A stretch of DNA of 64,000 bases from Austropuccinia psidii (lineage: Eukaryota; Basidiomycota; Pucciniomycetes; Pucciniales; Sphaerophragmiaceae): assembly GCA_023105745.1 (NCBI GenBank), contig JALGQZ010000011.1, forward strand, positions 21,602,975-21,666,974. The letters are read 5' to 3'. How positions within the stretch are numbered: the first letter of the stretch is position 1; the number at the start of each line of letters is the position of its first letter. The notes under the pieces were generated by a model that had not been told where the DNA came from, did not search any database, and was given only the letters and a program-made list of their open reading frames with translations. Positions 12,668 through 63,136 of this stretch are shown here, piece by piece. Position numbers and translations under genes: made by a program.

Positions 12668-15600
12668 GAGATATTCTGAGCCTTTTGAAGAAGAAGAAAT
12701 ACCAGATAAACCCAGTATAGAGAAAATTAATGTATTCTTTGAAGTCACAGAAGTGCATACTCACTTACCACAATATAGTGATGAATTTATGGCTCTCATA
12801 CATGTGCAAGATGCCAAAATGCAGAAAAATAAGCCTGTGAGATGTAAAGGTTATAAATCTGGATCATCCTGTATCATTAATATTGTGATAAAAAACAGAG
12901 AAGGAAAGATTAATATTGACTCAGGTGATTTCTGCACTTTTGTTGGTAAAAATTATCTTGACAAAGTTTATACAAATTGGCAAGAGAAATTGATTCCAAT
13001 TGAAGGTATAAAATTCAGAAGTGTTAGCCAGGATATGCACCATTTGGGCATCCTTGACTTGAAAATGATATTTCATAACCCTGCAAGAAGTATCAGACTT
13101 GAAGTTGTTTTTGCTGCTATGAATAACTGCACTTCACAACATTATATACTTGGGAATGATTATCCCAATATTTATGGTATTTATATTATTAATAATAAAG
13201 ACAGATATTTCACTATATGGGAAAATAAAATACAAAAATTTGCTTTTCCTCTAGAGAAAAGAGAAATAACTGCCATCAGACAAGTAAGAAGTTTTAATAA
13301 GGAGAAACTTGTGACATATCAATTGATTGAAGCACAAATAAGCCCTGAACTAACATTATAAATGAAGGATGACCTTATTGAAGTCCTATTTCAATATAGA
13401 GAGTCCCTTGCTTCTGATGATGAGGCACTAGGGGCTATCAAATGCCATGAAGTGAACATTATGCTTAATGTGGAAAGGCCTTATCCTCAACTATCAAGAA
13501 TATCAGATTAAAAAGCTATCCCCAGAGCTAGAGAAGCATTGAGAGCCCATATCAATAAGATGATGAAACTTGGAGCTCTCAGAAATTTTGGACACAATGA
13601 GGAAGTGGAATTCACAGCCCCCATAATCATTACTTGGCACAATGATAAATCAAGGATGGTTGTTAATTTTATAGCATTGAATACCTACACCATTCCAGAC
13701 AGGTATCCAATTCCTACAATCCATGAGACTTTGACTCAATTATGGAAAGAAATATGTATCACTTCTATAAATTTTCTTAAAGGCTTCCATAAGAATGTTT
13801 TTATGCCTCATGCTAGAGAATCATTGAGAATAATTTCTCATTGTGGTATTTATGCATATATGAGGATTTCTTTTGGAATTAAAAACACACCCTCTCATTA
13901 TCAAAGAATGCTGAATACCATCTTTCCACATGAATTACCAGACGCATGGTTAATAATTTATATTGATGAAATTATCATTTGTTCAGAAACCAGGAAATTA
14001 CATTTGGAGAGACTTTAATTGGTACTTAAGAGAATTCTTCAAGTGAACATAAAAATATCTCTTCAAAAAAGCAATTTTGGGTTTCTTGAGCTAAAAGCTT
14101 GAGGACATGTAGTTTCAGGACTTAGCCTTGGTGTTGAAAAAAGGAAAGTGGATTCAGTCCTATTGAAAAGAATTCCCCAGAACAAGAAATAAATAATGTC
14201 TTTCTGATGGTTTGCTAGCCATTACAGGCAACATCTCAAAGATTTTGCAATCCATGCCATATCATTGTACAGGCATTTTGATCACCAAACTGTCTTTGAA
14301 ATGACACAAGAAGGGATTCAAAAATATGAAAACATCAAATATGCCTTTATAAATGAACCATTATTATTGATTCCACTCTGGAAACTTCCTTTCAAGCTTT
14401 ATATTGATGCATGTGGTGAAGGTCTAGGTGCAGCTCTTCATCAAGCTTAAATTGTCAATGAAAATCCTTATGAAGGCCCAGTTTGTTTTATCTCAAGACA
14501 AATAAAGCCTACTCAGTCCATATATGGAGCAATCCAAATGGAGTGCCTTTGCCTTTTGTGGTCTCTGGAAAAGCTCCATTATAATCTTGATGGGAGTGTG
14601 TTTTAGGTGATTACTGATTTCAATTCCATGAAGTCACTTCTTAAAATGAAAAGTACAAATAGACACATGTTAAGATGGAACATTGCTATACAGGAGTATA
14701 GAGCCAATAAGAACATAGTGCATAAAGATTGAAATATTAATAATAATTCTGATGGATTAAGTAGATAGCAATTATGCAATACACCTGATAATACTGCTTA
14801 TGTTCCTGAAAGTGCAGAACCTCAAATTACAAATGAAAGAATTAATATCACAGATGCAGGAACAGAATTCCTTGAAGAAGTTAGAGAAAGCTATAAGAAA
14901 GATGAGAACTTCAATTTTCCTACTTCTATAATTGACAAAAATCTCAAAGATTAAGCTTTGGATACTTCTTTATATGATATATGGAAAACACCATATGATA
15001 ATGGAGGGTTACATTTGTTTGATAGTATCTTCTATCATAGGTCTAAACACACATGTGCAATGGTCTTATGTGTTATACTGTTAATAAACACAATATAGCT
15101 ATACTGCCATGACAACATTGATTCTGGAAATCTGTATGAAGACAGAAAAATGGAAAGAATTGGGACATGTTCTTGTTGGACATCTTGGAGAAAAGATGTC
15201 ATTGAATACTATCATAGTTGTGACAGGTGTCAAAATTCTAATAAATCTTGGGTGAAAGATCTGGGTAAATTATTAATATCAAAGAACCAAGTACACCATG
15301 TGAAGTGGTTCATATGAATTTGGTAACAGCCTTACCACCTGGTGGTGAAAAAAGCTACAATTCATGTCTTGTAATTGTAGAAAGGTACAGAAAATCCCCA
15401 ATCTTTTTACCATGTGATAAAGATGACACAGCTATGGAGAAATCTCTTTTAATTTGAAACAGAGTCATATCTCACACTGGTCTCTTTAAAAATATCATTA
15501 GTGATAGAGACCCAAAACTTACATCAGCCTTATGGAAAAATTTAAATAAGAGTTTGGAAACAAAACTATCATTCTCAACAGCTTACCACCCACAAACTGA

Positions 15601-16393
15601 TTTATTAGCAGAAAGAATGATTCAGACACTTGAGGACATGATAGGAATATTTTTTTGCTTATTTCCTGCAGTTTAAGGATTCCAATGGCTTCAACCATGA
15701 TTTGTGAACATTTATACCAGAAGTGTAATTAGCCTATAGGACTTAAATTCATTCCTTAATAGGAAAAACTCCTGGAATATTGGAAAAAGGATGGAGCCCT
15801 AAGCTTACAGTTGATAATTTGAAGAAAGATTTGGTTGATATTCATCCAACTGCTTCAAGCTTTAAGTTAATTCTGAATAAAGTGAGGCATTATGAAAATG
15901 AAAGCATGACTTATGTCATTTGATATGCTAAGAAAAAATGGGACAGAAGTCATAAAACCTGGAATTAAAAGTAGGGGACTTAATAATAGATTCAACCTTG
16001 AGCTTTAAAAACATTAAAGGCCTATGGAAATTGAAAGATTCCTTTTGAAGACCATTTATTATGAAATCCCTTCATGGGGAAAACACAGTACAAGTAGAAC
16101 TGTCAGGAGAACTGGAAAACAAAAATCCAACTTTCCCTGTTATTCTAGTAAAGCATTATGATTCAAGTGACAAGGATTTATTTCCTTTGCGAAATGAAAC
16201 ACCCTTATAAGTACCACCACTGAATCAAGGTGAAGAGAAAACAGTGCTGAAAGACTTGGAAGAAATAAGACCTAGGGGGAAAATGAAAGAGAGTACTTAG
16301 TCAGATACAGAAACCCAAAACATGAAGAGTGGCTTTCAGAAAGTAAAATAACTTATTCAAAAAAGTTTCTCAGAAATTTCAGAAATAAGAGAT
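12668..16393 (+). pseudogene. Ty3 chromovirus gag-pol remnant (decayed)
   Basis: This is a degenerate copy of the same polyprotein family as the intact one at 54872-60796. It begins in the Gag C-terminus directly against the inverted LTR. Protease has NIDSGDFCTF at about 12914-12943, followed by a segment matching GNDY and NNKDRYFTI. Reverse transcriptase at about 13370-14018 has its catalytic box changed from YIDD to YIDE. RNase H ([16 protein letters not shown]) lies at about 14400, integrase with HPQTD at about 15590, and a chromodomain-like end (EYLVRYRNP, EEWL) near 16300. Many stops and frameshifts break it into at least five pieces, the longest at 12753-13361, 13539-14018 and 14265-14450. 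Most of Gag and any ORF1 are missing at the 5' side. It is not functional. Confidence 0.9.
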
Positions 16394-30810: not shown

Positions 30811-31366
30811 TTTTTGTGGCCTGGATGTGTTTGTTGACCATTTTGGACCTTATAAGTGAGTTTTTTTACTTATTTTCTTTATTTTCTGACACTTGTTTCA
30901 TCTTTTTGGGCATAATTATTTCCCAAAAATATATATTTATTATATATTTATCCTTATACTCATATTAAAAAGAGTACTTGTCACGTGGCTAATAACAACA
31001 AGACCCTTATTTTTGGTGTGTTTTGTATATAAAAACACTTTGAGCCATTTAAGACACCTCATACTGATAAACCAACATTTGAGGCATGGTTGTGCAGATT
31101 GTTAACTCAATTACCCTATTACATACCACTTTTTGACAGTTTACACTTGCTAATTACAAGTTATTCTGTGAGATATTGGTATAAAAACAGTATACCAAAT
31201 ATCAGTAAGCTGTATTTATGATGTGAAATTGTTAATTCAATTACACTGTCATTGTACAAGGGCATATTTTAGTAATATACAAGCCCAGAGGCCATTCTTA
31301 GATGTACAAACAGCATTTTAAGAAGTCTTAACTGAAATTAAGACCTCTTTGTTCCTGTTTGTTTCA

Positions 31367-32436
31367 GTTGAAGATAACTTCATATCACTTGAAAGCCAGT
31401 CACAGGCCAACACACCAGTGACACCCTCAGAGCCAGAGGGCAGCAAAGGCAAAAGAAAGAGGCACAGTGAAGGCCTGATAACAGCAAAGAAGTGGACACC
31501 CATTGCCACACAGAAGAGTAGAAAACCACAAAATTCTGCTTCAATACAAGGTAAACCAACCTTGATAACTTGTACAGGGAAAATTACTATAATTAACACA
31601 ATTGTAACCTCTAAAGGTAAATTGCCCAAATCATCAGACAACAAATTTGTACAAGGCACAGTCAAAGGTAAATACCCTAAGAAAATAAAGGTATTGAATG
31701 CTTTAAAACACTAACATGTCACCTGTTCACCTCAGAGATCTTGGCTTCCAAATGAACCAGCCAGAGGACAGAAAAGGCTTGTCCAGAACCAGAAGACCTG
31801 AAAGAGGACACCTTTGACACAGTAGTGGATGGCAAAACAATGAGGGGGATAATATCAACCCTGCCATTAACACTCTAATTCAATGGAGACCTCAAACCAG
31901 AGGACTGGAAAGACATGGATCAAGTTCTTCAGCTCCACCAACTCCTCAAGGACCTATTGCAATGAAGCATGGACAACAAGAGGTTCAACCTGGCATCTCA
32001 CTGGGCAGAACTTGGAGCAAGTTGCCAGAAGATCTGTCTCAAAGAGATAGACTTCAAAGACCGTATGATAATTACCAAAGGTTGGAATCCTACCAGGAAG
32101 TCCAGACTCCTGGAGGCAAGGGCACAGAGGATAATGGAGAATCAAGCCACTATCCAAGCTATAGAAGAACAGTTAACCCAGACAGGGCCTACTCAGATTC
32201 CTTCAGGCTCACAAGGAGCAGGCCAAATAAGCTCTCCAGTAGCTTCAAACCACTCAGACACCAACAGATCAATGACCAAGAGTCACCACTCTTCACAATT
32301 CCAGGAGGTTTCCAGGAGAAGAAAAGGATACAAGGGGAAACACAAGACCTCTTTCAGCCAAAGGCAGAAAGAATCAGACCCCATGATCCAGAAGTTTTTG
32401 GATTTGGTGAAAGAAGTGCACAAGAGCCAGAAGTAG
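31367..32436 (+). pseudogene. ORF1 relic in the second Ty3 element
   Basis: A protein-like stretch follows an acceptor-like TTTGTTTCAG at 31366 (LESQSQANTPVTPSEPEGSK). After a possible intron comes a block from about 31740 to 32436 in the frame of 31969. The latter is interrupted by TAA (31876-31878) and TGA (31963-31965) and ends with TAG at 32434-32436. The segment containing RFNLASHWAELG and ITKGWNP weakly resembles the ORF1 of the young element ([11 protein letters not shown] and LLNGWHP). As in that element, it overlaps the start of gag in the +1 frame. Function unknown. Confidence 0.5.
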
Positions 32437-35400
32437 TTGCAAACCACTCTAGAATCAGTAATCCTAGTAATAGAAACATTACCCCCACTCAGACTGAACA
32501 TAACATTGTCACATCTGAGAGTAACATCAACAGTGATACACTGTGGTTACAAATGTCCCAATATGCTGAGCAATCTGCAAAACAGTTTGTAGAACTTGAA
32601 GCAAGCCATGAGAGGATGAAGAGATTAACAGCCTCCATGGATGAAATAATTAAAAATCTTCACAAAGGACATGATCAATTGAGCAAAGCCTCTGAAGAAA
32701 CCAACAAAAGACTGAATCTAGTCTTTGAAGAACAACACCACAGCAGAAGGAACAGGGATTGTCTGGACCAAGACAACAAAAAACTGTTTAATTTCTACCA
32801 TAACTTGGAGCCCCAACCACAAGTCCAAGTTATGGAAAATCCATATCAACCAGATGTCATCAAACCAGATGCCATTAATAAAGCAAGATCTCCATCACAA
32901 TACCAGGATGGAGATGTCATGTCTTATTTAGAGAAGGAAACCTTGAAACAGCTTCCTGAGGCCTCAAGCTGGCCCAAATTCTCTGGAACAGGAGAATATG
33001 ATCATATGGAACTCATACATTATATTGATGGACTCTTCATTGATGTACCTAGCATACCAGATTACTGGATTACTGCTAGATTGAATACATAATTTAAAGG
33101 TCATGCTAGTATATGGTGCACAGACATGAAAGAAATTCATGGCAGAAGAAACTGGCCATGGTGGAAGAGTCAAATCATCCAAAAGTACAGTAATGGAAGT
33201 TGGATATGGCAAAAGACCATGTCATTTGACAATGATAGATACTATGTGGACAAAGATCCATATGAGTGGTGTCCTAAACATTCTAAAAAACTTAAAGCCA
33301 TTGATTCTCAGATGAACATCCAAATGAGGAATCACAAACTTCTGACTCAACTGGCAGGAGAACTAGAGCATGCAGTAAAATGCAGATGAAACCAAAATTG
33401 CAATCTAGGTGACATTGCTAATACCTTACAAGATTTAAGGAAAAGAACTAATATAGGGAAATTCACCCCATATAAGAGCAGTGGTTTCAGAGAGAAACAA
33501 CCTTTCAGGGTAGAGTTTAAATACAAACCCAAAGAAAGAGTGGCAGAAGTGGCAAAGAAGAAAAATTCTTGTCATAATTGTGGTTCAACAGACCACTATG
33601 CCAAAAAGTGCCCAAAGGAAAAGAAAAAAGTCCATGCCATTGAGAAAGTCCCAGAGGAGGAATCCCCAACAGAGGATTCTGAATCAGACTCCATGGGTGA
33701 TGCTAGCAGAGAACTATCTGATGATGACCAAGACCCAAAGGAAGAATTTCTAGTAGAATACCAAGAGGAAACCCCTATAAAAATTCAGGACATACAGTTG
33801 GAAGCAGGCATGCCACAGGATACTGCCAATAAAAGCTTGTGCAAACACACACAAGATGCACAAACATTCCTGGTTACAACAACCAAAGAGATAGCATATA
33901 TACATGGAACAGCCACTAAAATGACTGTCTGTATTGACAATTCTCAACATCCATTGATCATTGATAGTGGGGCACACTGCTCCATAGTGGCCAGAAATTA
34001 TCTGGATAACCACTTCCCAAATTGGGAAAAACAGCTCTTGCCCACCAAGGCAAAGAACTTCAAAAGTGCCTCAGGGAAGATGACTTCCATTGGTACAATT
34101 ATCAAAGAGATAATTATACCCCACAGGAAGGGTAATATCAGACTCAACCCAGAGTTTGTAGTGCTTGATGATGCCCAAATCCAAGGGTTCTTACTGGGAA
34201 CAGACTACCAGAGGATGTATGGCATAGATATTTACAACAATAAAAATAGGCACATCACCATTGGTACCAACAAGGAAAAGAAATTTTCACTTGATATATA
34301 CCATATATCTTCTCAAGATATCCCTGGAAGAACTTCTGAATGAATTCAGAGAGGGACAGTTTAGCACTACCCGCACCAGGAAACAAAAACTAAGTTTAAT
34401 GAAGATTCTGAGAAAGAACAGACCAGCATTTGCCATTGGTGAAGAACCACTAGGCAAGATCAAAGGCCATTATATGGAACTATATCTGGATGTGGAAAGA
34501 CCTTATCCACCCATGCTTAGGAGACCTCCTTATCCAGAAAGCCTGGAAACCAGGAAAGAAATTGAAAACACATCAATGAAATCCTGGACATAGATATCAT
34601 CAGGAAGATTGGACATAATGAAATAGTGGAAATAACCGCCCCTGTCCTAATCACCTGGCAAGATGGCAAGTCTAGACTGTGTGGAGACTTCAGAGCTCTG
34701 AATAAATACACAAAATCAGACAGGTACCCTATACCCAGGATACCTCATTCCCTGGATAAACTGGCAAAAGCAAAATACATAACCAAAATGGATTGTATGA
34801 AAGGCCTCCACCAAAATGGAGTTAAACAAAACTCCATGAAATTACTCAGAATAATATGCCATATGGGCATATATGAGTATATCAGGATGCAATTTGGCAT
34901 CAAAAATGCACCAGCCCACTTCCAAAGGATGATGGACACAATATTTCAAGAAGAAATATTGGAAGGCTGGATGGTGGTATATATTGATGATATCATTATA
35001 TACTCAGAGACATGGGAAGACCATGTACATTAAATAGACATAGTGCTAAGCAAATTTACACCCATAAATATGAAGATTTCACTGAAAAAGTGTAATTTTG
35101 GCCAAAAAGAGCTACTACCTCTAGGACATAAAGTCGCAGGTCTTAGTCTGGCAATTAACCAGAATAAAGTAGCAGCAGTACTGCAAAAGCCAGTACCAAA
35201 GAGCATCAAAGAGATGCAATCTTTCCTTGGGTTTGCTAGCTACTACAGAAACCACATCAAGAATTTTGCCCACATAACTAGTAGTTTATACAAGTTATGT
35301 TCAAAAGATGTAGTTTTGAAATTACCAAGGAAAGAAGAGATGAATATGAGAGGATCAAACATGAACTCCCAAATGCACCTGTACTCATCTTGCCTGACTT

Positions 35401-36040
35401 TGAAATACCATTCAAGTTATATATAGATGCAGCATGTAGCCAAGGCTAAGGAGAAGCCCTTCACCAAAGACAAATTGTGGATGGTGAACCAAGAGAGGGA
35501 GTAATATGTTACATCTCTAGCCAGCTGAAAGATTCAGAGGCCAAGTATGGGGCCACCCAGACTGAATGTATATGCTTAGTCTGGGCTCTGGAGAAACTTC
35601 ATTATTATCTGGAGGGTGCAGTTTTTGAAGTCTACACAGATTGCACAACCTTGAAGTCTTTACTGAACATGAAGACTACAAATAGACACATGCTTAGATG
35701 GCAAATAGCCATCCAGGAGTATAGAGGGAACATGACAATCTTATACAAAGAAGGTGAAAGTCATACCAATGCAGATCACCTTAGCAGATGGCCACTGGAT
35801 AATGTCAAGAGCAATCCAGCGTATGACCCTGAAGTTTCAGCCAAGATCCCTATCTATTTAATGGAAATAGATAGGAGGAAGAACTTCAGATTTTCTGAAT
35901 GGGGACCAGAAAGTGGTACCCTTGACAGTGGAAACACTGATTCAGAGGGAACAGAAACTCCCATATTGGGAATAAGTTCCTCAGAACTGCACAATGAATT
36001 CTTTAGTGCAGTACTACAGTCTTATGCCAAACACAAACAG
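31962..36040 (+). pseudogene. Ty3 gag-pol relic (gag, protease, RT, RNase H)
   Basis: Gag runs from 31962 with internal stops TAA (33090-33092) and TGA (33387-33389). It holds a coiled-coil-like stretch, a Gag core (WPKFSGTGEYDHMELI) and a CCHC knuckle CHNCGSTDHYAKKC at about 33570. Protease has LIIDSGAHCSIV at about 33955. The frame shifts near 34310 and again before 34626. Reverse transcriptase keeps YIDDIIIYSE at about 34980, with a stop at 35031-35033. Another shift precedes RNase H ([15 protein letters not shown] at about 35575). The homology ends at SYAKHKQ, 36040. In the intact relative the same point leads on to integrase, which is missing here. It is a dead copy with recognisable catalytic boxes. 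Confidence 0.9.
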
Positions 36041-36044
36041 TCAC

Positions 36045-36165
36045 CGGGGCGAATCTCGTGTCAATCGTCGGCGATTGACTTCACGTCAAGCAAACGTCAA
36101 GCAGGATAAAAGTCGAGCTCACGTCAAGCGAAAATCAAGCAAACGTCGAGCACACGTCACACTCT
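36045..36165. repeat. Cluster of CGTCAAGC-type motifs at an element junction
   Basis: About six copies of CGTCAAGC or CGTCGAGC-like octamers with irregular spacing begin right after the Ty3 relic breaks off. Such clustered short direct motifs are typical of subterminal regions of EnSpm/CACTA elements, and a tnp2 gene lies next door. Assignment to that element is inference. Confidence 0.5.
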
Positions 36166-53015: not shown

Positions 53016-53020
53016 GCTTG

Positions 53021-54848
53021 TGTAAGGTGTGGATATGAAACTTTGATTAAAAATCAAGTACTTTTCCTGTCCTCAAAATTTGTATAAGGTAAAATTCAGT
53101 TAAAAATAGTATGAAATATTATTTTTAAGAGAAAACACGCCAATTTTATTGTTTATAACTTTATTAGTATAAAACAATAATATTATAAAAATTTATTGTT
53201 TTACCAACAATAAAAATTTATCCAAAAAATACTCTACAAGAGATATTTTAAGGCTACAAAAGAAATTTCTTCAAGAGCAATTTCAATTGGAATTAATTGA
53301 GCAAAGAACTGCAAGCAATTAATTAAAGAACAGAGTCTTTAAAAAGAATATTAAAGAGAAAACACGCCCAAAAGTGACCAGAGTGAATTTGGAAACAAAG
53401 TGACAAAGTTAACAGTGATGAAAGATGCTTTAATTCACTTTTGGGGTGGTTCAGGGGTAAAAATGATTATAAGAGTTACAAACAATGATTATAATGATTT
53501 TTTCACATGGTTAAAAGGTTTAAAATGATTTAAAAGAGGTGGTTGGAATCTTTTATTGATTGGTTTAACAGTTTTAAACTAATTAATAAAAGGAAAAGAT
53601 TCTAACATGAAGAGAAAAGTGGGGCAAAGAAGACATTCTTTTATAGCCATCAATTCTCTTACTCCAAAAGTAAAATTTACTCTTGTCAGTCGTGAAAAAC
53701 AGTCTGACAACAGAAAAGCCAATTATGGCATCATTGAACCCTGGTTTAGACCAAAAAGGGCTGGTTTAAGCCATTTTTAGCCATTTTAGACCCTTAAATC
53801 AGCCATTACTATAGCAATACCAGGCCTAGAGCCTTCAAAACACGTCAGAATGTGTGTCAGAGGCGTAGAAACCAGTTAAAACTGTTTTTATTATGATTGT
53901 TTTATCTTAAGGGTAGTTTTACCTTCTTGGCAACAGCTAAAACTACCCCAGTTGGTATCAAAACCTCATCATCAATTGAGTCCACAGACCCTGTAACTCA
54001 ATTCCAGGCCAAAAGTGATGAACTTTTGCGTGAATTTTGACATCCCACGCCTGTCAGCAAGGATTTTGGGGGTCTAGCTCCCCCTTAGAGCTGGAGTTCC
54101 TTTTCCCCCCCAAATTTAATCTTTCCAATTTATTTTTCCTTTAATTCCTCATCATGTATTATACTTATAATTTACACATGTAATTCAATTCAATTGTACA
54201 GTACAATACAGTAATAATTGACACCTCATATGTAAATCAAAGTTCACTTATGTAATACACGCGCACATTTTGACATTTCAATTGAATTCAATTGAAAATA
54301 CTTTAATTCCTCATAACTTCTAAACTAAACACAACACCTCAATTTTAACACAAAAATTGATGGTTAACACCACATGTGGTGTGAATTAAATTAAGGTTTT
54401 GAGGATTTTCAACTTTTGTATTGAAAATACTAAAAACTTAATTTAAGCTTATTTAGAGTTGAGTTACAAAAATTTCACTCAGAGGTGACCCCACCTGATT
54501 TTTTATGAGGAATCCAATGGTGAAATAAAATTTATATGTTTATTTATTGGATAAAAAGTTATAATAAATTTTATTTAACTTTTTTCCAAATTTATTTATT
54601 TTTTCACAATTTTGTTAAAATTTCATTTTTACTTAAATTTTTCAAGTATAAATGTAATTTTATATTTACAAAATTTAAAGTAATTTTATTTTTAAATTAT
54701 AATTAATTTTTTATTTTTAATATAATTTTATATTTATATTTTTTATTTTTATTTTAATAATATAAATAAATTTATTTTATTTATATTAATATGTTATTTT
54801 TTATATTTGTGGTCTTTTGGGTATATGAAATTACCTCTAAGGCTCACA
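53021..54848 (-). repeat. 3' LTR of young chromovirus (1828 bp)
   Basis: Nearly identical to 61269-63106. It includes an extremely AT-rich segment (about 54590-54800). On the minus strand it starts TGTGAGCCTTAGAGG and ends CACACCTTACA. Confidence 0.97.
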
Positions 54849-54866
54849 TTCCCTCCCCCTAAAAAA
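54849..54866 (-). promoter_or_regulatory. Polypurine tract
   Basis: Minus-strand run of A and G ending GGGGGAGGGAA directly before the LTR. It primes plus-strand DNA synthesis in this class. It lies only five bases after the gag-pol stop codon. Confidence 0.85.
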
Positions 54867-54871
54867 CAATA

Positions 54872-57800
54872 TTACTTTGTAATATTGGTGTTTCTAGTGT
54901 GTCTGAATCTCCTCAGGAGTTTGGTGGCTTCTGGTATATCTTTCTCTTCTAACCATTCATCTTCACAAGTTGGGTCACTGTACCTAACAAGGTATTCCCT
55001 TACTTTCTTGGTTCTTAATTTCCTTTCTTTAAGAACTTTGGTTATTTTCTTAGTACCAGATGTCTCAATAGGAGGTATAACTTGGGGAATCTTATTCCTC
55101 AAGGGAAATTTCTCAGCATCACTAGATTTGTATGGCTTTATCAAGCTTACTGGAAATGTAGGGTGCTTATTGCTAAGTTCTTCAGATAACTCTACTTCAA
55201 CAGCATTTTCTCCATGGAGGGCCTTAATCACAAAAGGTCCTGCAAAGGAGTCTTTTAACTTTTTACATCCTTTGATGTTATTGAAGTTAGTGGTGGATAC
55301 AAGAACTAGGTCCCCCACTTTGAAATCTGGAGTTGCATGAGATTTATCCCATTTGTCTTTAGCATATGCAAAAGAGTCCTCCATGCATCTCACTGCATGC
55401 TTTCTAGCTTTGTCTAGCATTCCTTTGAAGCTAGCAGCTGTGGGATGTATTTCAATTAAGTCTTTCCTCAAGGAATCTTGGGGTAACTTGGGGTTCCATC
55501 CTTTTTCTAGAATAGCAGGAGTCTGATTGGTACTGGAATGGATTGATGTTTTATATGCTAATTCCAGTGCTGGTAACAGAGTACACCAATCATGGGTAAA
55601 TCCATCACAATCTTTGAATTCAAGGCCATATGCACAAAATCTTCTCACCATGTCCTCTAAGGTTTGGATCATTCTTTCAGCCAGACCATCAGTTTGTGGG
55701 TGGTAGGCTGTAGAGAAAGACAGTTTTGTGCCAAATAATTGGTGAAGATTTGTCCATAGAGCTGAAGTGAATTTGGGATCTCTATCACTGATGATATTTG
55801 TAAATATCCCAGTCCATGACACTACTCTATTCCATATCAGAAGAGCTGTATCCATGGCTGTATCATCTTTGTGACATGGTAAAAAGATTGGAGTTTTACT
55901 GAATCTGTCCACAATTACTAGGCAAGCATTATAGCTCCTGTCACCTCCTGGTGGTAGGCCAGTTACCCAATCCATATGGACAATTTCCCAAGGTCTGTTT
56001 GGTTCTTGGATTTTCATCATATTTCCAAGTCTTTTGCCAGTGGATTTATTTGCCTTTTGGCATCTGTCACAGGTTTTGCAATATTCTGCAACATCTTTTT
56101 GCCACATTGGCCACCATATGCAGGTCTTTACTTTCTCTCTTTTTCTGTCCTCAGAAAGATGTCCTGAAAAGGGACTATCATGGCATTCTTTCAGTACAAG
56201 ATTGATTAATGACCTGTCTACAACTGTCATGACACATGTGTGCTTGGTTCTGTGGTAAATTATACCATCCAGTAGGTGAAATCTCCCTTCATTATAAGAT
56301 TTTCTCCATACTTCATCCAAGGCATGTATTAGAGAGTTGTCTTTACAGTCTTTGTTAAGTAATTGGCATAAGATGCTACAATTCTTATCTTGAGTGTAAC
56401 TATTTCTGACTTCTTCAAAGAAGGTGGTGTTCAAGTCTGTAACACTTATTCCTTCTATTGGAATTTGTGGTGAAGCTTCTTCTGGAACATAAGCAGGATT
56501 ATCAATGCTATTTGGTAATGGCCATCTGCTTAGTCCATCTGCATTCTTATGAATATTCCCATCCTTATGAACAATAGTCATATTGCCTCTGTATTCTTGT
56601 ATGGCTATTTGCCATCTGAGCATGTGTCTGTTAGGTGTTTTCATGTTCAAAAGTGATTTCACAGCTGTACAATCTGTTATTACTTCAAAAACACATCCCT
56701 CTAAGAAATAGTTCAATTTCTCTAAGGCCCAGACAAGGCATAGACATTCCATTTGACTTGCTCCATATCTGGCTTCAGTTGGTTTGATTTGCCTGGATAT
56801 GAAACATATTGGTCCTTCTACAGGTTTGTCATTTATGATCTGAACTTGGTGAAGTGCAGCACCTAGTCCATCCCCTGATGCATCAATATACAGTTTGAAA
56901 GGCAATTTAAAGTCTGGCATCAGTAAGAGTGGAGCAGTGGTCAATGCTTCTCTTAGAGACTCAAAAGCTTTGACTCTGTCAACAGTCATCTCAAATACTG
57001 TGTCTTTGTCACACAACTTATAAAGTGGTCTTGCTATGGATGCAAAGTCTTTAATGTGTTGCCTGTAATATCCTGCAAAACCTAAGAATGACTGAATTTC
57101 CTTCTTATTCTGAGGCATGGGTTTTAACAATACTGCTGCAACTTTGTTTTTATCAATTCCAAGGGACAAACCAGATACAACATGTCCTAGTGCCTTAAGT
57201 TCTTTAAATCCAAAATGACATTTCTTCAAGGAGATTTTCATGTTTACTGATTGGATTTTTGTCAAAACTCTTGATAATCTGTACATGTGCTCCTCCCAAG
57301 TCTTTGAACAGATAATAATGTCATCAATGTAAATGATTAACCATCCTTCTGAGAGTTCTTCAGGGAAGATTTCATTCATCATTCTTTGGAAGTGTGAAGG
57401 TGCATTTTTGATACCAAAGGGCATCCTTAAGTATTCATACACTCCACAATGAACAATAATTCTCAAGTATTTTCTTGCTCTTGGTGTTACTACATTTTGA
57501 TGGAATCCTTTAAGGGCATCCATAGTGGTTATATACACTGCTTGAGATATTTGAGTAAGGGCAATTTGGATTTTTGGTATTGGGTATCTGTCTGGAACAG
57601 TGTAAGTGTTCAGAGCTCTAAAGTCCCCGACCATTCTGGATTTTCCATTATGCCACGCCACTATGACTGGTGTAGTTATTTCTACTTCCTCATTGTGGCC
57701 TACTTTTCTTATTACACCAAGGTCTAGAAGTTCTTTGATATGAATTTCTAGAGCTTCTCTTGATTTTGGACTTGCTGGATAAGCAGGTCTTCTTAAGAGT

Positions 57801-60796
57801 GGTGGATAAGGTCTCTCAATGTTAAGAATGATGTCAACTTCATGACCAATAATTGCTCCCAGGGGTTCTTTGTCTGTAGCAAATGCTCCTCTGTGGTCAT
57901 ACAAAAGGGAAGAAAGTTCATTTTCTTGCTTATCAGTCAGATGAAGGCTTATTTCAGCCTCATTTAACTGTTCAGACTTGAATTTCTCTAACTCTAAGTT
58001 GACTGGTGATACTTTGTTTACTGTAATTTGTCTTTTAAAGGGTAAAAAGGCAAATTTCTGGCGCTTATTGTCTCCAATTGTAAAGTATCTGTCTTTGTTA
58101 TTATGTAAATCTATCCCATACATGATTAAATAGTCATTTCCCAATATAAAATGGGTACTAGAGCAATTTTCCATAACAACAAATTCAACTGTGATCCTTA
58201 AATTCCCATTTATGTGTGGGAATATGACATTGGTCTCAAAGATTCCTAATGCTTTCATTGGGTTACTTGCACTGTTGAATTTTATACCATCAATTGGTAA
58301 CAATTGGTCTTCAAAATTTGGTACACAAGTCTTAAGAAAAGATTTTCCAACACAAGAGCAGAAGGCTCCTGGGTCAAGCAAAAGTTTGGTGGGTTTGTTG
58401 TCAATCACCACTTCTGTTATACAGGAGTTACCAGCTGTATAACCTTTTCCTCTGTTTGGTTTTGTCTTCATAAGTTGTGCATCTTGAACTTTTGATAAAT
58501 CAACTTGACCATTGCTCAATTGTGGTAAGTGGGAATAAGATTCCATGATGTCAAAAGTGGCATTGATATTTTCTATATCTTTTGAAGATTCAGAGAATAT
58601 GGATGACTTATCATCTGAATTGTCTTCAATTATGTCTTCTTTTTCAACATCTGGTTCTTTTTCAATGTCAATTTCATTGATTTTCCCCCTTTTTGGACAT
58701 GTATTGGCTAAATGGGTGGTGCTTTGGCAAATATGGCATTTTCTGACTGTATCTGCAGATTTATATTTAATATTACTAGAATTTTCTTTGGGGTTTTTGT
58801 CCACAGAATCTTTCCAAGGTGTATTAAACCTTGTTTTAAGATTCACCCTACTAGAACCAATTTTGGTTCTGGTGGTTACTTCTTCCAGTATATTGATAAT
58901 ATCCTCTGCTGAAGATTGTTCAGTAGTCCTGCTTTTGACAGCATGCTCTAAGTCACCTCCACATTGTCTCAGAATTTTTCTATGGATCATAAATTCTGAC
59001 ATGTCAGGATATAATGCTGTTAATCTGTCCTTTTGTTGGCAAAACCATGGTAAAGCTTTGTCTTTATCAGCATTAAATTTGGAAGATTCAAAGGCTGTTT
59101 CAACTTTAAACCTCCAAGCATCATTTGCCCATTTGTTGATGATTTGGGTTTTCCACCAAGTCCAACTCTGGTGTCCATGTGCTTGTCTTATTTTGATGTA
59201 CCATCTGTGAGCTGATCTGGTAAACAAGGTGTTAAACCTGGCTGTTACCAATCTTTCTGGTAATTCAAAATCCTCTTTGATCATGTCAATACCTCTAATG
59301 AATTCCATATGGTCATACTCTCCTTCACCACTGAAGTGAGGCCATTCTTTAAGTTTTGGAACTTCTTTCAAGAGTGCTTGGCCCATTGATGGTTCCAAGT
59401 TATGAAAAGAAGTGGATAATTCATTTTTTAATTGTGAATTATCAGGATCCAATACTTGTGGATTTGAAATTCTTGTGCCCTCATTTTGATTTAGAGGTGT
59501 AGACATTCTTGGTAGGGTGTTCAGTAATTGTTCAATGTCATTCATTTTACTGTTGCTACACCTTTGGGAATTTCTGTATTCATGTTGGAAGCTTTGTATT
59601 AAATTTATTACTTCAATTTTATACATGTCTTCTTTATGTGTAAGTTCTTGCCATACCTCTGTCTGTCTTGTATTATCAGCAGTGACTTGATTCAATTTCA
59701 TTGATAATTTTGATACTTCTTCTTGTGAAGCATCAAAACACTTTTTCAAGGCAATGGTATATGTCTTTACTTCAGTAAATGAATTTGAAATGTCATCAAG
59801 GACTTTCTTGTTATCTGTCTTGATAATATTTATGGCTTGTTTAATTCTTGTTTCAATTATGTCATCAATATTGAATTTAGAATATTTATCTGTTAATTCT
59901 TTAATAATGGCAGATTGTTCATTTATTTTATTGTTAGAAGAATTATCATTATTGGAATTTTTAATTGTTCTCAAAACTTTTTCAAAACACATAAGTGTTT
60001 CATTAATTTGGCACAGACTCAGGTTGTTTGTTTTAATGTTGTTACAAATGGTGTCATTTTTATCAGAAAGATGTTTTTTCACGTCATTTATAGCATTATA
60101 CAACTCTGGGATGGAATCAAATATGTCAGAAATCATTTCTGGAACCTTAATCTGGCTTCCTCCTTCTTCTGTAATTCCATCATGGTTCTGGCCATCTGAA
60201 ATACATTTTCCATGGCATCCTGCTGAATCTTTGGGATTCTGTAGCCCTGTCTGTAAGGTTTTGGGGCTGGTGCCTTCCCTTTGCCCTTGTTTGGAGTTTG
60301 TGGCTGCTTTTTCACGTTGGAATTGCTGCTGCTGGCCACTGGGGCTGTTTTTGGCACTGGTTTGGCTGGTGGAGGGTTGTTTTTCCTCCATTCTAGTGTC
60401 AAAAGCATCATGTTTTTCTTCTCCATCAATGGATGCCATCCATTGAGCAATTTGCAAGTGTTGGGATGGCCCAAGAATTTTCTTACTGTCAGGTAAGAAT
60501 TCATGCAATTCTTCCACAGGTCTGCAAGGATCTGGTACTCCTTGAATTGGAGTGCATTGTTGTATGCACTGTGGCTGGCTTTGTATATGTCCACAGAGGC
60601 TTGTTGTGGCGGTGTCAGCTCTTTTTGAAGGTAAAATGGTATTATCAGCTTCAGAATGACCCATTTTAGTTGTTTGGAAGTCATCAACTGACCCTTTTCC
60701 TTCTGTACCTGGTTGGCCTCTGCCATAATCACGTCTATTACCTTTTTGGGAGCTTCTTGAGGGGTTGTAGCTGGCTCCTGACCTGGTTGAAGGCAT
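54872..60796 (-). CDS. Intact Ty3 chromovirus Gag-Pol polyprotein
   Basis: 1974 codons from the ATG at 60796, or 1754 from the ATG at 60134-60136. The first 220 codons overlap ORF1 in another frame and look less protein-like. Order: a Gag helical region, the Gag core ([15 protein letters not shown]), a CCHC knuckle [14 protein letters not shown] near residue 690 and protease near 808. Then come reverse transcriptase with YIDDIIIC near 1155, RNase H ([16 protein letters not shown]) near 1300, the integrase HHCC finger and D,D,E motifs ([28 protein letters not shown]). A C-terminal chromodomain ([20 protein letters not shown]) follows, of the kind that targets chromatin. The protease carries D-P-G (Pro codon 58370-58372) where D-S/T-G is expected and where both older copies in the window have D-S-G. 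No stop or frameshift was found. Confidence 0.95.
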
Positions 60797-61122
60797 AATT
60801 ATGGTTAAAAAAGGCTTAAAATAGTATTTTTACGTCAAAAACTTACTATTGGCCAAATTTTTGGCTTTCTGAAGTGTATTACTTATATCCAAGTTAATTA
60901 ATTCAGAAGATATTGGTTCAGGTTGATTATTTTGAGTTACAATAACAGTACTATTATGATCAGAATTAACAGTACTGGCAGGGATAATGCTGGTTACTGT
61001 TGAGGCTGTTTCAATGTTTTCTTGTCTTACCACGTTGTCAGACACTAAAATTAATGAAAAAGCCAATTAATTAAGTAAAAAAAAGGTTATTTCAAAAAAG
61101 AAATAAAAATATAAGCCTCACT
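60133..61122 (-). CDS. ORF1 of the young chromovirus (spliced model, 282 aa, unknown function)
   Basis: Two putative introns, 61045-61121 (GTGAGG...TTTTAG) and 60783-60846 (GTAAGT...AACCAG), join A(61122), 61044-60847 and 60782-60133 into 849 nt. This is 283 codons with the stop. The first junction creates the start codon (A + TG), and no ATG exists on the unspliced strand between the LTR and 60796. The second intron contains the gag-pol ATG. The product begins [15 protein letters not shown] and has a central Trp- and Leu-rich helical region ([27 protein letters not shown]). It ends in a Lys/Pro-rich tail with a charged helix. The UGA stop overlaps a gag-pol ATG as ATGA. The family is unknown to me. 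The second Ty3 element has a relic in the same relative frame. The exons are unverified. Confidence 0.6.
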
Positions 61123-61250
61123 TATAATATGAAAAAAATTATTTTTTAAGGATTTTTTTGGATTATAAGTATTTTGTATATGTTGTTAAATTTTTCAATA
61201 TAAGAAAAAAAGATTTAAAAAGAGTAAAAAATATGTCACAGGTAAAATAT

Positions 61251-61266
61251 CACGGCTGGGCCCCCA
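61251..61266 (-). promoter_or_regulatory. Primer-binding site
   Basis: Minus-strand TGGGGGCCCAGCCGTG starts 2 nt after the LTR end CCTTACA. The leading TGG fits pairing with a tRNA 3' CCA. The specific tRNA could not be identified. Confidence 0.7.
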
Positions 61267-61268
61267 AA

Positions 61269-63106
61269 TGTAAGGTGTGGATATGAAACTTTGATTAAAA
61301 ATCAAGTACTTTTCCTGTCCTCAAAATTTGTATAAGGTAAAATTCAGTTAAAAATAGTATGAAATATTATTTTTAAGAGAAAACACGCCAATTTTATTGT
61401 TTATAACTTTATTAGTATAAAACAATAATATTATAAAAATTTATTGTTTTACCAACAATAAAAATTTATCCAAAAAATACTCTACAAGAGATATTTTAAG
61501 GCTACAAAAGAAATTTCTTCAAGAGCAATTTCAATTGGAATTAATTGAGCAAAGAACTGCAAGCAATTAATTAAAGAACAGAGTCTTTAAAAAGAATATT
61601 AAAGAGAAAACACGCCCAAAAGTGACCAGAGTGAATTTGGAAACAAAGTGACAAAGTTAACAGTGATGAAAGATGCTTTAATTCACTTTTGGGGTGGTTC
61701 AGGGGTAAAAATGATTATAAGAGTTACAAACAATGATTATAATGATTTTTTCACGTGGTTAAAAGGTTTAAAATGATTTAAAAGAGGTGGTTGGAATCTT
61801 TTATTGATTGGTTTAACAGTTTTAAACTAATTAATAAAAGGAAAAGATTCTAACATGAAGAGAAAAGTGGGGCAAAGAAGACATTCTTTTATAGCCATCA
61901 ATTCTCTTACTCCAAAAGTAAAATTTAATCTTGTCAGTCGTGAAAAACAGTCTGACAACAGAAAAGCCAATTATGGCATCATTGAACCCTGGTTTAGACC
62001 AAAAAGGGCTGGTTTAAGCCATTTTTAGCCATTTTTAGCCATTTTAGACCCTTAAATCAGCCATTACTATAGCAATACCAGGCCTAGAGCCTTCAAAACA
62101 CGTCAGAATGTGTGTCAGAGGCGTAGAAACCAGTTAAAACTGTTTTTATTATGATTGTTTTATCTTAAGGGTAGTTTTACCTTCTTGGCAACAGCTAAAA
62201 CTACCCCAGTTGGTATCAAAACCTCATCATCAATTGAGTCCACAGACCCTGTAACTCAATTCCAGGCCAAAAGTGATGAACTTTTGCGTGAATTTTGACA
62301 TCCCACGCCTGTAAGCAAGGATTTTGGGGGTCTAGCTCCCCCTTAGAGCTGGAGTTCCTTTTCCCCCCCAAATTTAATCTTTCCAATTTATTTTTCCTTT
62401 AATTCCTCATCATGTATTATACTTATAATTTACACATGTAATTCAATTCAATTGTACAGTACAATACAGTAATAATTGACACCTCATATGTAAATCAAAG
62501 TTCACTTATGTAATACACGCGCACATTTTGACATTTCAATTGAATTCAATTGAAAATACTTTAATTCCTCATAACTTCTAAACTAAACACAACACCTCAA
62601 TTTTAACACAAAAATTGATGGTTAACACCACATGTGGTGTGAATTAAATTAAGGTTTTGAGGATTTTCAACTTTTGTATTGAAAATACTAAAAACTTAAT
62701 TTAAGCTTATTTAGAGTTGAGTTACAAAAATTTCACTCAGAGGTGACCCCACCTGATTTTTTATGAGGAATCCAATGGTGAAATAAAATTTATATGTTTA
62801 TTTATTGGATAAAAAGTTATAATAAATTTTATTTAACTTTTTTCCAAATTTATTTATTTTTTCACAATTTTGTTAAAATTTCATTTTTACTTAAATTTTT
62901 CAAGTATAAATGTAATTTTATATTTACAAAATTTAAAGTAATTTTATTTTTAAATTATAATTAATTTTTTATTTTTAATATAATTTTATATTTATATTTT
63001 TTATTTTTATTTTAATAATATAAATAAATTTATTTTATTTATATTAATATGTTATTTTTTATATTTGTGGTCTTTTGGGTATATGAAATTACCTCTAAGG
63101 CTCACA
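61269..63106 (-). repeat. 5' LTR of young chromovirus (1838 bp)
   Basis: Carries one additional 10-bp AGCCATTTTT unit near 62025-62040 compared with the 3' LTR. Substitutions relative to that copy are at about 61755, 61927 and 62312. Confidence 0.97.
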
Positions 63107-63136
63107 GCTTGCGTCTTGTCGGAGTCTTTGCAATGA

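Follow-up and report, generated by a model that had tools for sequence, protein, structure and literature searches.

How one transcript of a retrotransposon can be both message and genome when a second gene overlaps the first is the question raised by an element on the minus strand of a 64,000-nucleotide (nt) stretch of the rust Austropuccinia psidii (GenBank assembly GCA_023105745.1, contig JALGQZ010000011.1, positions 21,602,975 to 21,666,974), the whole of which we call the window. We conclude that splicing very probably switches this long terminal repeat (LTR) retrotransposon between Gag-Pol and an overlapping open reading frame, ORF1. Scanning ribosomes on the unspliced RNA, which would also serve as genome, would meet no AUG between a point near the presumed start of transcription and the AUG of Gag-Pol, and would make Gag-Pol. 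Removal of intron 1 would join A to TG and create the ORF1 AUG, removal of intron 2 would discard the Gag-Pol AUG and fuse exon 2 to the +1 frame, and removal of intron 3 would trim ORF1 in frame, such that the fully spliced RNA would encode ORF1 as a 258-residue basic accessory protein. An intron-split ORF1 AUG would let exon 2 sit upstream of Gag-Pol with the AUG-free leader unspoiled, because a whole AUG at that place would capture ribosomes. The parts of the element, numbered by the window, are as follows.

61269 to 63106, minus strand: 5' LTR with TG...CA ends, 99.3% identical to the 3' LTR
61887 to 61893, minus strand: TATA-box-like TATAAAA, presumed promoter; the last ATG ahead of the AUG-free leader follows 37 nt downstream
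60797 to 61853, minus strand: AUG-free leader of 1057 nt with 0 ATG and 17 CAT, ending at the Gag-Pol AUG
61122 to 61268, minus strand: post-LTR part of exon 1, whose final base, A, supplies the initial letter of the ORF1 AUG once spliced
61268 to 61253, minus strand: putative primer-binding site inside post-LTR exon 1
61045 to 61121, minus strand: intron 1, 77 nt, GTGAGG...TTTTAG, exactly gone in genomic copies L049, L050 and L051
60847 to 61044, minus strand: ORF1 exon 2, 198 nt, beginning with the TG of the AUG, then 65 open codons and no ATG
60783 to 60846, minus strand: intron 2, 64 nt, GTAAGT...AACCAG, holding the Gag-Pol AUG and exactly gone in L050 and L051
60794 to 60796, minus strand: Gag-Pol AUG, starting 14 nt from the 3' end of intron 2
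60693 to 60782, minus strand: ORF1 exon 3, 90 nt
60621 to 60692, minus strand: intron 3, 72 nt, GTCAGT...AAAAAG, in frame for ORF1 and coding for Gag-Pol, exactly gone in L050 and L051
60133 to 60620, minus strand: ORF1 exon 4, 488 nt including the stop TGA at 60135-60133, the basic C-terminal half
60133 to 60136, minus strand: AUGA, the ORF1 stop overlapping an in-frame Gag-Pol methionine codon (Met221), not specially conserved
54872 to 60796, minus strand: Gag-Pol ORF, 1974 residues, whose first 220 codons overlap ORF1 or ORF1 introns
53021 to 54848, minus strand: 3' LTR, preceded by a purine-rich tract

The whole retrotransposon spans 53021-63106 and is bordered on either side by CAAGC, a 5-bp target duplication (63107-63111 and 53016-53020). 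Pfam models on Gag-Pol matched RVT_1, RT_RNaseH, Integrase_H2C2 and rve, in that order, together with a Tf2-1-type SH3 domain. With paired TG...CA LTRs, a target duplication, and reverse transcriptase and RNase H placed before integrase, the element is of the Ty3/Gypsy type. The original prediction had called it a chromovirus, a label defined by a C-terminal chromodomain; none was matched by Pfam at an expectation value (E) of 1 or below in the 1974 residues of Gag-Pol, and the label is therefore not confirmed.

The strongest evidence for splicing is a set of spliced genomic copies, which show the past existence of such RNAs, not their abundance. We searched the genome (1,015,390,075 bases in 84 contigs) for the intron-1 junction with up to three mismatches, using the reversed pattern as control, and found four matches against none for the control. 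Intron 1 was exactly absent from L049 (0 mismatches), L050 (1) and L051 (2). The fourth match, L052, was rejected: it retains the intron and matched by chance at the acceptor. Introns 2 and 3 were also exactly absent from L050 and L051, and retained in L049, which suggests that removal of intron 1 by itself may be common. The junction-2 pattern had a single exact match, in the same element as L051, and none in the control; L050 is too diverged at this junction for the pattern to detect. All three copies have LTR sequence upstream and look like reverse-transcribed spliced RNA. Identity to the window element over matched pieces was 85-90% for L050 and 93-98% for L051, and these differing identities make at least two separate events likely.

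The junctions are those originally predicted, at 61122/61044 and 60847/60782 around introns of 77 and 64 nt, and both occur exactly in genomic copies. Intron 1, whose removal was proposed to join A to TG, is exactly missing in L049, L050 and L051 (the start codon of L050 reads ATT), and the loss of the Gag-Pol AUG with fusion of exon 2 to the +1 frame, proposed for the second, is borne out by L050 and L051. The predicted 283 codons, counting the stop, hold if two introns are removed; the third intron had been missed, and fully spliced ORF1 is 1 + 198 + 90 + 488 nt, or 259 codons with the stop (258 residues), as removal of intron 3 takes 24 codons out of ORF1 in frame. Both splice-site pairs had also been expected to be conserved in young copies. 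GT...AG was present at intron 1 in 29 and at intron 2 in 27 of 29 aligned young copies, the window's own included (losses were the donor GT in L019 and the acceptor AG in L010; of 30 loci, L009 was omitted as its match begins later), a conservation that proves little by itself since ORF1 identity was the basis on which copies were chosen. If the unspliced RNA is the packaged form, these sampled copies would be expected to keep their introns.

Relatives of the element, whose family we call F1, came from 16 arbitrary 10-kilobase (kb) stretches sampled for ORF1 matches and from the window itself. The 16 stretches held one close F1 copy (L046), an F1-like fragment (in L034), two distant relatives (L033 and L048; F3, or F3a and F3b) and five matches to a second family, F2, with 75-85% identity in four stretches (L034, L035, L041 and two in L047). 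A distant F2-like ORF1 of 32% identity with several stops (L040:1427-987) may represent a fourth family. The window also carries a decayed F2 copy.

30811 to 36064, plus strand: second, decayed family F2, with the intron and overlap layout as in F1
31368 to 32436, plus strand: F2 layout region
31368 to 31667, plus strand: F2 exon 2, beginning with TT here and with TG in better copies
31668 to 31735, plus strand: F2 intron 2, holding the gag ATG at 31716
31736 to 32436, plus strand: F2 ORF1-frame exon, with 3 stops

In the F2 copies L034 and L035 a donor-like site follows an A and an acceptor-like site precedes TG, such that splicing would give ATG, and the gag ATG lies inside intron 2, 20 nt from its 3' end. 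A whole ORF1 AUG in exon 1 of the window F2 copy had been considered and was dropped because these better copies show the A/TG junction. Both F3 copies have an acceptor-like site before TG and a gag ATG 11 (L033) and 14 (L048) nt from the 3' end of intron 2. In the F3 segment corresponding to intron 3, the ORF1 frame contains stops, and the Gag frame stays open with partial conservation, which agrees with removal of intron 3 from the ORF1 RNA only; L033 has a good GTAAGT...CAG there. The start-codon layout recurs in two further families, in one of them with an unclear intron-1 donor. Side observations on these relatives include, within introns 1 and 2 of L034 and L035, a short upstream ORF start, ATGACTTATTA(A/G), common to both copies, and a TGA stop that precedes the gag ATG by one base and may also serve as a branch site. 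Elsewhere in the genome, ORF1 matches that occur in pairs separated by about 8.25 kb (C9:37685752/37693989, C1:35443177/35451435, C4:20213294/20221546 and C6:3741330/3749587) have the spacing expected of tandem elements sharing one LTR. An old Gag-Pol relative at 12717-16392 on the plus strand of the window is 55% identical from residue 741 on, with the gag part unmatched.

We then assessed the distribution of AUGs upstream of Gag-Pol. The first ATG after the LTR is 60796, as predicted, and it opens the 1974-residue Gag-Pol: between the LTR end and this AUG there was no ATG in 472 nt (6.0 expected), and none in 729 nt of L033 (8.0 expected) or 597 nt of L048 (7.0 expected), counts reached in 2, 0 and 1 of 2000 dinucleotide simulations, respectively. 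Counted beyond the LTR end, the ATG-free stretch extends over 1057 nt in F1, 1539 nt in L033 and 1223 nt in L048, which on the same strand hold 17, 23 and 19 CAT; the upstream edge in F1 is 37 nt below the TATA-like box, and transcription is predicted to begin near 61855-61865, at this edge. Over the 1060 nt before the AUG, 11-14 ATG were expected and 1, 0 and 0 seen (F1, L033, L048), vs. 27, 19 and 22 over the 1060 nt that follow. Between LTR end and AUG, 2 ATG each were present in 942 and 929 nt of the F2 copies L034 and L035 (12 and 14 expected; 1 and 0 of 2000 simulations as low), and the window's decayed F2 copy had several. Among 32 of 33 F1 sequences that could be matched (all but L009; L032 is partly covered, and L001 is the window's own copy), the Gag-Pol AUG was kept in all 32 and leader ATGs totaled two, one in L046 and one in L005. 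The F1 leader spans the downstream part of the LTR, the putative primer site, intron 1, exon 2 and most of intron 2. Since the AUG-free stretch covers introns that are absent from spliced RNA, selection would act on the unspliced RNA, which ribosomes would scan from close to its 5' end as far as the Gag-Pol AUG. The original prediction that genomic RNA and Gag-Pol come from unspliced and ORF1 from spliced RNA fits this leader and the junctions of the spliced copies; that the RNA isoforms occur in cells and that each product is translated, we infer.

The leader also bears on another way to express both genes, stop-start coupling, in which ribosomes ending at the ORF1 UGA would restart at the AUGA (60136-60133) to make Gag-Pol from Met221, the 220-residue overlap normally being untranslated in the Gag frame. 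The window element has the AUGA overlap, 14 of 120 listed gag-frame gene models begin at Met221, and UAAUG/AUGA coupling is described in the available text of PMC5972666 for SART1 and Helminthosporium victoriae virus 190S, including in a non-LTR retrotransposon. Against such coupling, Met221 was kept in 71% of 97 covering models, below most of its neighbors, and the window F2 copy lacks AUGA, its ORF1 ending in TAG. Because AUGA is not specially conserved and is absent from that copy, stop-start translation is unlikely to be the main route. Moreover, the Gag frame ahead of Met221 is kept open against expectation, and AUGs are absent from the leader all the way to 60796, including introns that are removed from spliced RNA. 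Coupled reinitiation, which had been our first alternative, was demoted on these grounds, and we consider it improbable.

Conservation of the two frames was assessed between distant families. ORF1 identity between F1 and F3 was 37% (L033, E 1e-24 over 154 columns; L048, E 9e-29 over 179 columns), and blastp bit scores for the ORF1, Gag and third frames in three F1/F3 pairs were 105/56/62, 110/48.5/46 and 152/99/56. In DNA alignments of these pairs built ignoring frame (out-of-phase columns dropped: 0, 79 and 91 in overlap pairs; 97, 0 and 52 in control pairs), the share of mismatches at ORF1 codon position 3 was 0.60, 0.55 and 0.51 vs. 0.34-0.47 elsewhere (p = 0.004, 0.027 and 0.0007). These peaks indicate that the overlap is conserved mainly as ORF1. 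A Gag-only control region in the same pairs peaked at gag position 3 (p of 1e-6 or less), which shows that the method works. The claim that the +1 frame is more protein-like than the overlapping Gag-Pol N-terminus was therefore upheld, ORF1 being the conserved frame, yet the Gag N-terminus is also kept open. With the window ORF1 protein fixed and synonymous codons permuted, the Gag frame stayed free of stops in 1 of 20000 trials (7.3 stops on average), and in 0 of 10000 when codons were redrawn by pol usage. The same test gave open Gag frames in 3 (L033), 1 (L048), 0 (L034) and 0 (L035) of 5000 trials, with 5.7, 7.1, 8.3 and 7.7 stops expected and none observed (the part after intron 3 was used for L033 and L048, and ORF1 of L035 itself has one stop). 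Conversely, with the Gag-Pol protein fixed, the window ORF1 frame was open in 1417 of 20000 trials (mean 1.9 stops) or 469 of 10000 with redrawn codons, and in 169 and 33 of 5000 for L033 and L048, respectively. Six control Gag-Pol stretches had 11-20 stops in the ORF1-equivalent frame. The amino-acid composition of the Gag part avoids +1 stops (1.9 expected vs. 13-18 in controls), which makes this part look like the one overprinted on ORF1. The two genes form an overprinted pair with both frames kept open beyond chance, the ORF1 side resting also on conservation; judged from these comparisons, the Gag-Pol N-terminus over ORF1 is kept open but drifting.

Another explanation is that only ORF1 is real, the Gag frame above about Met221 being open by accident and Gag-Pol starting downstream in some other way. 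In the overlap, Gag-frame proteins diverge more from the window element than ORF1 (31% vs. 20% among listed models named A. psidii MF-1, the models coming from different searches), and the Gag frame scores near the third-frame control in two F1-F3 pairs. Accidental openness is improbable, however, in five copies of three families, the Gag frame of the F3a-F3b pair is above the third frame (99 vs. 56 bits), and the stretch without AUG stops at 60796 in F1 and at its counterpart AUG in F3; we regard this explanation as quite improbable. Chance origin of GT-AG-like segments and of an accidental +1 ORF in AT-rich repeat DNA has in its favor that GT and AG are frequent and that the intron 3 donor is weak. 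Three intron segments are, however, lost exactly in genomic copies, ORF1 is deeply conserved and the layout recurs in other families, and we regard chance as highly improbable; for introns 1-3 chance is refuted unless L049-L051 are artefacts.

Several observations weigh against a splicing switch between Gag-Pol and ORF1. The spliced copies are decayed (L050 has ATT as start and one ATG in the leader; L051 has a stop after 108 codons), and they number just three vs. 32032 ORF1-like places in a loose first-look count, which suggests that spliced RNA is rarely copied back. The intron 3 donor GTCAGT is weak, the F3 copies have no clear intron-1 donor, and L048 has no clear intron-3 donor either. 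The leaders of the two F2 copies L034 and L035 contain two AUGs apiece, one of them similarly placed in the pair. No spliced copy of F2 or F3 is known, no completed search having been aimed at either family. Similarity between F1 and F2 ORF1 was not significant (hhalign E 0.52 and 0.2; best hmmsearch E 0.047; 35 of 1000 shuffles as good), and openness of ORF1 given the Gag protein is by itself weakly improbable. The comparison of change in both frames that the original prediction proposed was divided: distant pairs favor ORF1, and 7 of 9 variable overlap sites among the 29 young copies are ORF1 second and gag third positions, a variation biased by the selection of copies on ORF1 identity. Conservativeness of amino-acid changes in the MF-1 models was rejected as a test, as it did not separate the frames; Gag looked more conservative (-0.14 observed vs. 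-0.41 expected) and ORF1 hardly so (-0.21 vs. -0.23).

A 215-residue part of the ORF1 product is basic (isoelectric point 9.9, charge +19), had no Pfam match, and was given a poor predicted fold (mean pLDDT, the predicted local distance difference test score, 51.7), mainly helical at low confidence. The best 120 of 580 relatives with E up to 10 all carry the name Austropuccinia psidii MF-1, as F2 ORF1-frame relatives in the protein collection (869) carry the name A. psidii in 119 of 120 listed, and a scan of viral contigs found no relative. Exon 2 was present in 32 of the 120 listed MF-1 gene models, about 20 of which show the predicted intron-2 junction; 75 of the 120 span intron 3 (45 unclear), with 23 skipping and 52 retaining it. 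These models are predictions, not transcript evidence. By analogy with the CERV protein of the retrotransposon Cer1, a tentative guess is that ORF1 may act in export or packaging of the unspliced RNA.

Spliced accessory genes are already known in LTR elements, with Cer1 as an example and BARE1 splicing for Gag; we take Cer1 of C. elegans to belong to Ty3/Gypsy and BARE1 of barley to Copia. In regulated retroviral splicing of the Rev type of human immunodeficiency virus (HIV), spliced RNA gives an accessory protein and unspliced RNA gives Gag-Pol and the genome. The rust element would resemble this type, with its donor just downstream of the putative primer site; we claim no sequence relation of ORF1 to Rev. 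For Cer1, the CERV accessory protein is made from spliced mRNA, unspliced RNA encodes Gag and Pol and is the genome, and CERV is needed for export of the unspliced RNA (PMC10309623, whose available text also mentions Rev-type splicing). The rust element, whose spliced junctions occur in genomic copies, would share with Cer1 an accessory protein made from spliced RNA and having its own frame in part, but CERV has exons 1-3 in the gag frame and exon 4 in its own, and the available text describes no splice-assembled start codon or AUG-free leader for CERV (PMC10309623). BARE1 has, as the rust element would have, a facultative intron and separate RNA pools for translation and packaging; its splicing favors Gag over Pol by truncation, whereas the rust element would swap to another, overlapping gene (PMC3735527, available text). 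MDG1-group elements of Drosophila likewise carry accessory small ORFs (sORF1 and sORF2) upstream of gag, but these do not overlap it, and in the available text the transcripts are without evidence of splicing (PMC11952523). Our literature search, which covered open-access papers and left most subscription papers outside its scope, found no report of the rust ORF1, a splice-assembled AUG or an AUG-free leader.

We would tentatively see in these elements, which are abundant in the rust genome and have leaders free of AUG for 1-1.5 kb, a start-codon switch class of LTR retrotransposons, in which ORF1 might protect, export or package the unspliced RNA in a Rev-like feedback loop, perhaps resembling CERV. 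Many predicted A. psidii genes bearing these frames would then be transposon products, in a genome published as gigabase-sized (PMC8063080). Existing RNA sequencing of infection and spores, as reported in PMC8063080 and PMC12774611, would allow a direct test of how one transcript serves in the two roles of message and genome. If the switch is real, the start codons of fungal LTR retrotransposons would set a retrovirus-like choice, with RNA for the genome and Gag-Pol on one side and an accessory protein on the other.

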